A DNA stretch of 64,000 nucleotides from Haloarcula halophila (GTDB lineage Archaea > Halobacteriota > Halobacteria > Halobacteriales > Haloarculaceae): assembly GCF_029278565.1 (NCBI RefSeq), contig NZ_CP119559.1, forward strand, positions 2,666,001 to 2,730,000, given 5' to 3'. Both the position numbers and the translations under genes were made by a program. Position 1 is the first letter of the stretch. Each line of letters begins with the position of its first letter. Shown here one piece after another: positions 21,416-55,653 of the stretch. The notes below the pieces were generated by a model. It made no database searches and was not told the DNA's origin. It saw only the letters and a list, made by a program, of their open reading frames with translations.

Positions 21416-22468
21416 ATGCTTCAGCGGGCCGAGCCACAGGAGTTCGAACGCGTCCTCTCGTCGATGTGTACGGTCCCACATCCGACGGCCCGCGAGGCAG
21501 CAGAACGGTTCCTCGCGACGAATCCCGGCGATCCCGGCACGTACGAGACGGTCGCGGAACTGGAAGCCGAGGCCGTCGACTCCCTCGGTGAGCTAACTGG
21601 CCTGCCGGAGCCGGCGGGCTACGTCGCCTCGGGCGGGACCGAGGCCAACATCCAGGCGATCCGGATCGCCAGGAACCGCGCCGACACCGACGATCCGAAC
21701 GTCGTCGCTCCGGTCCACGCCCACTTCTCCTTTACAAAGGCCGCCGACGTGCTCGGCGTCGAGTTGCGGACCGCTCCCGCGACGGACCACCGTGTGAACG
21801 TCGAGGCCATGGCGGAACTGATCGACGACGACACCATCTGTGTGGTCGGGGTCGCCGGTTCGACGGAGTACGGCTACGTCGACCCCATCCCCGCGATCGC
21901 CGACCTCGCGACGGACGCCGACGCGCTCTGTCACGTCGACGCCGCCTGGGGCGGGTTCTACCTCCCCTTCACCGACCACGACTGGCACTTCGGCCACGCG
22001 GACGTGGACACGATGACCATCGACCCGCACAAGGTCGGCCAGGCGGCGGTCCCCGCCGGCGGGCTGCTGGCACGGGATCGTTCGCTCCTAGATGAGTTGG
22101 CCGTCGAGACGCCGTATCTGGAGTCGACGAGCCAGTTGACCCTGACCGGCACGCGTTCGGGGGCCGGTGTCGCCTCGGCGGTCGCGGCCATGGAGGCGCT
22201 GTGGCCGGCCGGCTACCGCGAGCAGTACGAGCGCTCGATGGCCAACGCCGAGTGGCTGGCCGATCAACTGGACGCCCGCGGCCACGAGGTCGTCGGCCCG
22301 GAACTCCCGCTCGTCGCGGCGGACCTCTCGGTGCCGATGACCGACGAACTGCGCGACCGCGGCTGGCGCGTCTCCAAGACCGGTGCCGGCGAGATGCGCG
22401 TCGTCTGTATGCCCCACGTCACCCGGTCGATGCTGCGGTCGTTCGTGGCGGACCTGGACTGGTACTGA
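21416..22468 (+). CDS. mfnA: Aspartate/tyrosine decarboxylase (MfnA-type, PLP-dependent)
   Basis: Archaeal MfnA-type enzymes decarboxylate tyrosine (methanofuran) or aspartate to beta-alanine (for CoA). Haloarchaea do not make methanofuran, so aspartate decarboxylation for CoA is the better guess. The 350-residue product has [16 protein letters not shown] (PLP phosphate binding), [13 protein letters not shown] (Asp for the pyridine nitrogen) and TIDPHKVGQ with Lys206 as the PLP lysine. The C-terminal sequence FVADLDWY stops at 22468, and the DNA coding for it is repeated 144 bases downstream beyond a hairpin element. It lies between two divergent sensor modules. Confidence 0.92.
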
Positions 22469-22612
22469 GTGATGCTGCCCGCGAGGACGCCAGCGGCGTC
22501 CGAGCGGCTTTTTCGCCCACGTTTTTCGAGGAGGGTGCCCGCAGCGGCGCGAAGCGCCGCGAGGTCACCCGACGCGGAAAAAGGTGGCGTGGCGGACCTG
22601 GACTGGTACTGA
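22444..22612 (+). repeat. Hairpin element copy 1 with 25-bp duplicated gene end
   Basis: The last 25 bp of the decarboxylase gene including its TGA (22444-22468) recur exactly at 22588-22612. Between them lie a 7-bp stem with AGC loop (22485-22501), CCCACGTTTTT (22516-22526), a compound hairpin (GGGTG/CACCC outer stem, 7-bp GC inner stem with GAA loop, 22533-22570) and GGAAAAAGGTGG (22576-22587). The order matches the element at 54810. It is too small to encode a transposase and seems non-autonomous. It fills nearly all of the gap to the next gene at 22687. Confidence 0.75.
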
Positions 22613-53774: not shown

Positions 53775-53816
53775 TGGAACGATGGGCTTTTGCCCGCGCC
53801 CCGCACCCTCTCGGAC

Positions 53817-54809
53817 ATGACTGCAGAGGACGACCCCGAAGAAGAGGGACTCACGTACGCCCAGACCGGCGTCGACATCGACGAGAGCGAGGCAGCTACG
53901 ATGGCACTCATCGGCGCCGCCGGCGAGTTCGAGGGGGACTACGCAGGGCTGGTGGACATCGGTGATCAGTACCTCGCGCTTGCGACCGACGGCGTCGGGA
54001 CGAAACTGCTCGTCGCCGAGGCGATCGACGACTACTCGACGATCGGGATCGACTGCATGGCGATGAACGTCAACGACCTCGTCGCTACCGGCGTCGAACC
54101 CGTCGCCTTCGTCGACTATCTGGCGGTCGAAGCACCCGACGAAGAGACCAGCGAGGCGATCGGTGCGGGCCTGCGCGAGGGCGCCGAGCGGGCGGGTGTC
54201 GCACTCGTCGGCGGCGAGACGGCGGTGATGCCCGACGTGATCAAGGGCCTGGACATCGCCGGCACCTGTGCCGGCCTGGCGCCGAAAGACGCTGTCTTCC
54301 CCGGCGAAGCCGAGGTCGGCGACGCGATCGTCGGCTGGCCGTCCTCGGGTATCCACTCGAACGGGCTCACGCTGGCCCGCGAAGCGGTCACCCGCGACCA
54401 CGAGTACACCGACCCGTTCCCGCCGAATCCGGACCGGACGATCGCCGAGGAACTGCTGACACCGACCCGTATCTACACCGACGTGTTGCCGACGTTGCGG
54501 GGCCACGAAACTCACGCCGCCGCCCACGTCACCGGCGGCGGCTGGACGAACCTCACACGGATGGGTGAACACCGCTACGAGATCACCGATCCGTTCGAGG
54601 CCCAGCCGGTCTTCGAGTTCGTCCAAGAGGAAGGGACCGTCGACGACGAGGAGATGCACCGGACGTTCAACATGGGGACGGGTTTCGTGGCGGCGCTGCC
54701 GGAAGCGGACGCCGCGGCGGTCGTCGATGACAGTGAGGACGCGCGGATCGTCGGCGAAGTCACCGAGGGTGAGGAGTGCGTGGCGGTGCGGGGACTAGAA
54801 CTACAGTAG
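53817..54809 (+). CDS. purM: Phosphoribosylformylglycinamidine cyclo-ligase (AIR synthetase)
   Basis: PurM closes the imidazole ring in purine synthesis. The 330-residue product has YAQTGVDIDESEAATMAL, ALATDGVGTKLLVAEAI, GIDCMAMNVNDLVATGVEP, ALVGGETAVMPDVI, GWPSSGIHSNGLTLAREAV and HVTGGGWTNLTRM, all ATP/FGAM-binding motifs. The final 45 residues (from TGFVAALPEADAAAV) have a second diverged copy encoded 284 bases downstream beyond a hairpin element. The resident C terminus (RGLELQ) differs from that copy (RGLELTE). Confidence 0.96.
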   Translation: MTAEDDPEEEGLTYAQTGVDIDESEAATMALIGAAGEFEGDYAGLVDIGDQYLALATDGVGTKLLVAEAIDDYSTIGIDCMAMNVNDLVATGVEPVAFVDYLAVEAPDEETSEAIGAGLREGAERAGVALVGGETAVMPDVIKGLDIAGTCAGLAPKDAVFPGEAEVGDAIVGWPSSGIHSNGLTLAREAVTRDHEYTDPFPPNPDRTIAEELLTPTRIYTDVLPTLRGHETHAAAHVTGGGWTNLTRMGEHRYEITDPFEAQPVFEFVQEEGTVDDEEMHRTFNMGTGFVAALPEADAAAVVDDSEDARIVGEVTEGEECVAVRGLELQ

Positions 54810-54958
54810 TGCGGTCGCGGTGCGGTTGCGGTGACGAGAGGATGCGTACTGCTGGCGAACGCAGTGAGCCAGCAGGGAGTTTTGCCCCACGTTTTTGCGA
54901 CGAGCGGTTCGACCGCGGTGAAGCCGCGAGTCGAACCCGAGGAGGAAAAAGTGGTCGC
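54810..54958 (+). repeat. Hairpin element copy 2, directly behind purM
   Basis: Immediately after the purM stop come a G-rich repeat (GCGGT units), an 8-bp stem with an 11-base loop (54849-54875), CCCACGTTTTT (54886-54896), a compound hairpin of 8 plus 5 bp with a TGAAG loop and one bulged base (54906-54937) and AAAAAGTGG (54946-54954). The layout matches the element at 22469. This stretch codes for nothing recognisable. Confidence 0.75.
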
Positions 54959-55096
54959 GGGACGGGTTTCGTGGCGGCGCTGCCGGAAGCGGACGCCGCG
55001 GCGGTCGTCGAGGACAGCGAGGACGCGCGGATCGTCGGCGAGATCACCGAGGGCGACGAAGCCGTCGCGATTCGCGGGCTCGAACTGACCGAGTGA
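54959..55096 (+). pseudogene. Duplicated, diverged 3' end of purM
   Basis: From GGGACGGGTTTCGTGGCGG onward this repeats the last part of purM: the first 53 bases are identical to 54675-54727. The rest differs at many positions, mostly synonymous or conservative, and ends in its own stop (GLELTE-stop). It has no start of its own. The pattern suggests that one of the two ends came from another purM allele, and that this distal copy is the displaced original end. Confidence 0.8.
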
Positions 55097-55110: not shown

Positions 55111-55653
55111 TCAGCTAACCGTCCGAGCGATGTCGGCCTCGGTGATGACGCCGACGGTCCGTCCGTCCTCGACGACCAGGACGGCGGCGTTGTGGTTGAG
55201 GTAGTCGTCGACGGTGTCGATGGTCGCGTCGGGTTCGACGGTCGTGATCGACTCGTTCATCACTTCGGCGACCGGGAGTTCGCCGACGTTCTCCTCGTCG
55301 CGCTGGCGGATGTCCGAGTTCCCGATCAGTCCCTCGGGGGAGCCGTCCCGGACGACCGGGACCTGCGAGAACCCCTTCCCGTCCATCAGTTCCTTGGCGT
55401 TGTGGACCGAATCGTCCGGTTCGACGCTGTGGACCGGCGAGTTCATCAGATCCCGTGCCCGGACGATCCCGCCTTCGGCTTCTTCGAGGGCGTTGACGAT
55501 CCGGCGCAGCGTCGAGAGCCGCGGGTCGACGTCGCCGCCCTCGATCCGCGCGATCAGCGGCTGTGAAACGTCGGCCCTGTCGGCCAACTCGCTCTGGGTC
55601 AGATCGAGTTCGGTACGGCGTTCCCGGAGGTCCGCTGACGTGGGTAAGTCCAT
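55111..55653 (-). CDS. HTH-CBS transcription regulator
   Basis: The 180-residue product has an Xre/Cro-type helix-turn-helix at about 8-60 (LRERRTELDLTQSELADRAD, VSQPLIARIEGGDVDPRLST) and two CBS repeats (about 65-120 and 125-180: ARDLMNSPVHSVEPDDSVHN, VAEVMNESITTVEPDATIDT). CBS pairs usually bind adenine nucleotides, so this may sense ATP/AMP-type ligands. This architecture is conserved in archaea. Palindromic or self-control sites are not obvious. Confidence 0.92.
   Translation of the reverse strand: MDLPTSADLRERRTELDLTQSELADRADVSQPLIARIEGGDVDPRLSTLRRIVNALEEAEGGIVRARDLMNSPVHSVEPDDSVHNAKELMDGKGFSQVPVVRDGSPEGLIGNSDIRQRDEENVGELPVAEVMNESITTVEPDATIDTVDDYLNHNAAVLVVEDGRTVGVITEADIARTVS

Follow-up and report, generated by a model that had tools for sequence, protein, structure and literature searches.

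Duplicated gene ends border a dispersed hairpin element behind purM of Haloarcula halophila and behind other genes of related haloarchaea

The window analysed here is a 64,000-nucleotide stretch of the Haloarcula halophila genome; all features are on its forward strand unless stated otherwise. An open reading frame at 53790-54809 is the host gene purM, with the ATG at 53817 as its probable start codon; it matches TIGR00878 at 312.6 bits, which is above the cut-off. The present 3' end of the gene (54675-54809, ending GLELQ) is the proximal copy of a direct repeat. A distal copy (54959-55096, ending GLELTE) lies further downstream and has its own stop codon at 55094-55096. The two align without gaps over 128 bp (54675-54802 and 54959-55086) at 88% identity; the repeated gene end beyond a hairpin element and its separate stop, both described in the initial annotation, are therefore real and correctly placed.

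The proximal end continues into a non-coding tail at 54810-54848, as judged from a comparison of the 75 nt after the stop. The stretch of about 150 bp between the two copies contains two hairpins. Hairpin 1 (54849-54875, CTGCTGGC...GCCAGCAG), followed by a T-rich tract, is terminator-like, and this layout recurs before other copies of the element. The second is the element core, a long hairpin of the form CCACGTTTTT-hairpin-AAAAAGTGG located by pattern search at 54887-54954. No integrase gene is found in the insert. Downstream, a convergent gene with helix-turn-helix and CBS-type matches occupies 55111-55653 on the reverse strand. For annotation, short open reading frames at distal gene ends, including the one ending at 55096, should be treated as probably not genes.

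Differences between the two purM copies are unevenly spread. The first 53 bases (54675-54727 and 54959-55011) are identical at 53/53 positions, as had been noted, and 60 of the next 79 positions agree. There are 20 differences over 132 positions, none within the first 53; the chance of this is approximately 1e-5 under an even spread and 4e-4 if only third codon positions are counted. The changes were initially described as mostly silent; this holds only roughly, since the diverged part contains nine synonymous and seven non-synonymous codons.

The two ends are different alleles, as had been proposed. Past the identical block, the distal copy is 92% identical to purM of G020, the closest relative with an empty site, and the 75 nt after its stop are 83% identical; it continues into a downstream flank like that of G020. 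The proximal copy past the block is 83% identical to G020 and 82% to G062, a genome of another genus which carries an array of purM ends and elements. The 75 nt after the proximal stop are 80% identical to the G062 copies and at most 61% identical to all other purM ends compared. In the diverged part, the distal copy differs from G020 at seven positions (six of them third positions), the proximal copy differs from G020 at 17, and the two copies differ from each other at 20 (Fisher p 0.017, on 79-base counts). In its closeness to G020, the distal end almost equals the gene body. Since the distal copy is closest to G020 and the proximal copy is further away, the distal copy is the native end, which is not expressed as part of purM; the proximal copy, which is not native-like after 54727, separated earlier. 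A tree of purM ends groups the proximal end with G062 (support 85/83), although the sequences compared are short, at about 80-140 bases, and single-locus trees are therefore weak.

These comparisons bear out the key prediction of the initial annotation, that an empty site would end in GLELTE, as it does in G020. They also agree, for purM only, with its proposal that a replacement gene end arrived with the element and left the original end distal: the distal flank resembles G020 and the proximal tail resembles G062. From these similarities, the working end of purM in the window looks acquired together with the element, with the original end persisting behind it. In G029, purM likewise carries two ends, without an identical block between the copies, and the distal copy leads into the flank of the empty relative G030. 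As G029 has no such block, the 53-bp block is read as a probable region of exchange or gene conversion rather than as an att site.

The element that follows purM belongs to a dispersed family of non-coding hairpins with a core of 50-75 bp, CCACGTTTTT-hairpin-AAAAAGGTGG. A BLAST search of the stretch between the two purM ends against its own genome identifies related places, among them L006, where the element follows pheT and the end of pheT is likewise repeated. The core pattern CCACGTTTTT-N-AAAAAG occurs seven times in this genome, always on the 3.04-Mb replicon, while a reversed control pattern does not occur in it. Of 60 relatives, 38 contain the pattern, most of them members of the same family; a form with the full right end is present in 31 of the genus's 32 genomes. 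A strict form matches at least 120 stretches from named genomes, and genera among the matches listed are Haloarcula, Halomicrobium, Halorientalis, Halosimplex and Salinibaculum; patterns this strict miss part of the family. Because the copies are intact and dispersed, the earlier description of a non-coding remnant stands for non-coding and fails for remnant.

The core base pairs in 166/166 different cores (CCAC:GTGG and T5:A5, with one mismatch), and across these cores the inner stems vary with compensatory changes; the search pattern fixed the core ends, which leaves the inner covariation as the independent evidence. TTTTTCGCCCACG is almost confined to the element: in loci enriched for it, 154 of 184 occurrences of TTTTTCGCC run on as CCACGTTT. 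In the hairpin 1 region, the 45 nt upstream fold better than shuffled sequences in about half of the copies. Rfam 15 covariance models give no match at E up to 1 in six loci, and in eight loci nothing beyond two microRNA matches at chance level; no description of the family was found in the literature searched. At porB, the element is the region directly 3' of the stop. Members of the family lie at gene ends and resemble transcription terminators; their likely function is termination on both strands. Other T5-T5 spacers, with AGCGTAGA and GGTCCAGA replacing CGCCCACG, and extended multi-hairpin forms are seen at porB (L228-L257), L310 and L137; spacer types change between close species at a single gene.

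A direct repeat spans the left and right flanks of 75 of the 167 copies with enough flank (about 45%); with exchanged flanks as a control, a repeat is found in one of 160. The left copy of the repeat is the end of the gene preceding the element, with lengths of about 20-165 bp, and the right copy mostly begins 0-8 nt past the core end. Genes with a duplicated end include pheT, citrate synthase, TIGR00300, mfnA and purM. The resulting cassette has a regular order: gene 3' end, stop, hairpin 1, T5 tract, core hairpin, and a second gene end leading into the native flank. At five loci the distal copy also includes hairpin 1 and TTTTTCGCCC and is then followed by other DNA. The second core in the window (22517-22587) lies behind mfnA, whose match to the MfnA family is below the cut-off for the part scanned; the proximal gene end is at 22447-22469 and the distal copy at 22588-22612 is flush with the core end, with 25/25 identical positions in the aligned repeat. 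Most copy pairs are 93-100% alike inside one genome. Tandem arrays of gene end plus element are seen at L174 (G017), L169 (G034), L326 (G062) and G014:C1:1319199-1319778, the last with four 170-bp units; units within one array are near-identical.

Copies without a repeat occupy other positions. Their core ends no more than 8 nt from the stop of a convergent gene in 37 of 92 cases, compared with 3% for random positions; among the 75 copies with a repeat, none lies so near to a convergent stop. About six no-repeat copies adjoin a tRNA 3' end, and some others precede promoter-like sequence. At L168, L064, L065, L102, L158 and L194, the core end lies directly against a tRNA gene's 3' end on the opposite strand; at L168, tRNA-end-like sequence is repeated on either side of the element.

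At a given gene, the second copy starts at the same codon across species and genera. The second purM end starts from the same codon in three Haloarcula species (G000, G001 and G029) and in G062, G085, G089 and G101; G139 and G166 likewise have a second end. At pheT, at least seven species of the genus carry the element, with the junction GGTGGTNGCARCACGA, and most others lack it. Citrate synthase and TIGR00300 show a similar pattern. Occupancy is patchy, and the sister genome G020 is element-free at both purM and pheT. In G031, the proximal end and tail of TIGR00300 are of the G004 type while the distal end is of the G003/G005 type. A general rule of a foreign proximal and a native distal end was considered and dropped, as distal ends are not generally more native over 25 loci of four genes.

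In a total of 64 pairs, the copies differ at 40 first, 21 second and 131 third codon positions. The third-position share is 68%, against at most about 48% expected under free drift of one copy (p 1e-8; p 1e-5 once the purM pairs of the window and of G029 are left out), where the 48% comes from a rough model and pairs of the same gene or array are not independent. This pattern fits selected coding alleles rather than drift.

The core is copied between loci, by transposition or ectopic conversion. Two copies in G023 at unrelated loci are alike over exactly the 70-bp core (98.6%); in another pair the likeness again spans exactly the core (90%). G026 contains a pair of identical cores, with similarity continuing about 20 bp upstream.

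The best explanation of these data, which we regard as evenly balanced between right and wrong, is that cassettes arose once per gene, when an insertion was accompanied by a long duplication, and later moved by homologous recombination. The data directly show the architecture of the cassettes, their dispersal, the constant junctions, the presence or absence of the element among close relatives and the native distal end of purM; how cassettes are born and spread is inferred. At birth, the core would be copied behind a gene and the preceding 20-165 bp duplicated. Thereafter, ordinary homologous recombination between strains or species could move the cassette by its gene-end homology arms, as both flanks match the gene end in a recipient that lacks the element. 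Crossing over within the gene end would leave the recipient with a partly foreign proximal end, its own end distal, and the gene unbroken; the 53-bp identical block in purM would be the site of that exchange or of later conversion. Gene conversion in polyploid haloarchaea and recombination between haloarchaeal species are documented by the abstracts of PMC8223754, PMC11276520 and PMC4500145 taken together. The explanation draws on the gene-end repeats (75/167, against 1/160 for exchanged flanks), on a pheT junction common to at least seven species and a purM junction common to several genera, and on patchy occupancy with G020 empty at both genes. It also draws on the 40/21/131 codon-position differences over 64 pairs, on the window purM, where the distal end sides with G020 and the proximal tail with G062, on the mixed types of the TIGR00300 ends in G031, and on the exact copying of the core between unrelated loci in G023.

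Several observations stand against it. The 25 loci of four genes do not follow the foreign-proximal, native-distal rule. A drop in similarity marking a left crossover was sought in the purM body and is not seen, and the G062 purM body is equally close to Haloarcula and to its own assigned genus. Recombining cassettes also leave unexplained the flush copies without a repeat at convergent stops, tRNA ends and promoters. A more speculative proposal, which we hold only tentatively, is that these are mobile units spreading through housekeeping genes with no enzyme of their own: the gene-end homology arm would allow recombination into an empty allele, swapping the 3' end and keeping the old one, and ectopic copying of the hairpin core would found cassettes at new genes.

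Insertion could instead have been repeated at every locus, if the element were a MITE mobilised by an enzyme whose insertions each produce a long target duplication of variable length, with later divergence due to drift, conversion or recombination. The near-inverted core ends CCACGTTTTT and AAAAAGGTGG, copied as a unit, fit this, as do repeats ranging over about 20-165 bp and the five distal copies which include hairpin 1 and TTTTTCGCCC. There is precedent in IS1549 and IS1634, whose direct repeats are long and variable (8-514 bp) and whose family is frequent in Euryarchaeota (PMC2266710). However, the same junction codon for each gene across genera is unexpected from independent insertions, the purM copies are different alleles, and no transposase with the ends of the core is found at the 14 PF01609 matches in the genome; we consider this reading rather improbable. 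An old vertical duplication, with ancestral repeats lost in many species by recombination between them and otherwise kept alike by gene conversion, would account for constant junctions across genera and for the 93-100% likeness of most pairs within a genome. Gene conversion in polyploid haloarchaea is documented and efficient according to the abstracts of PMC8223754 and PMC11276520. Vertical descent, combined with losses and gene conversion, can look like spread by recombination, which also counts against the favoured explanation. An unused distal copy should drift, yet 68% of differences are at third positions; moreover, the distal purM end has seven differences to G020, six of them at third positions, which approaches the closeness of the gene body, while the proximal end is further away. 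An old duplication is judged unlikely.

The initial annotation regarded the purM insert as a shrunken integrative element with an att-like core that brought its own replacement gene end. The foreign-looking proximal end, the native distal end and the identical block at one side of the repeat are as this reading would have them. Against it, the same element lies behind many unrelated genes with unrelated junction sequences, the exact core was sought in viral contigs and is absent from them, and G029 purM has no identical block; with no integrase or viral copy found, this origin is very improbable. The viral contigs likewise led to a viral vehicle for the element being rejected, and a tRNA-like att reading of the junction GATGCGGGACGGGATTCG was dropped due to the unrelated junctions at other genes. 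Plain tandem duplication of gene end and element cannot alone yield one element between two ends. Retrocopied mRNA 3' ends were suggested by the five distal copies, which end near the second T tract, and were discarded as the distal purM copy enters the native flank.

Rfam and the literature searched hold nothing on this gene-end element family, which is widespread in a large archaeal family. It gives a sequence-based view of gene 3' ends exchanged between species with function kept. Gene-end repeats this long, with constant junctions, are unusual; their origin and movement can be tested by comparing strains.

Members of the IS1634 family (IS1549 and IS1634) and IS-derived MITEs are known for long, variable repeats, which the element shows in 75 of 167 copies, and resemble it in forming a short non-coding unit with near-inverted ends at many loci. 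The element differs from them in that each gene keeps one junction across genera, only gene ends are repeated, the two copies can represent different alleles, and no transposase is found at PF01609 loci of its own genome. REP/BIME and ERIC sequences are short, imperfect palindromes dispersed between bacterial genes, with conserved structure and variable stems. The element is likened to these dispersed intergenic palindromes by description, not by sequence; we know of no case in which they are bordered by duplicated gene ends. The e14 element and phage 21 integrate in the 3' end of icd, which is restored. The element described here differs from both: it has no integrase and no single target gene, is about 150 bp of non-coding DNA, and has one cassette type per gene. 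The likeness lies in the outcome, where incoming DNA brings a replacement 3' end and the native end becomes distal.
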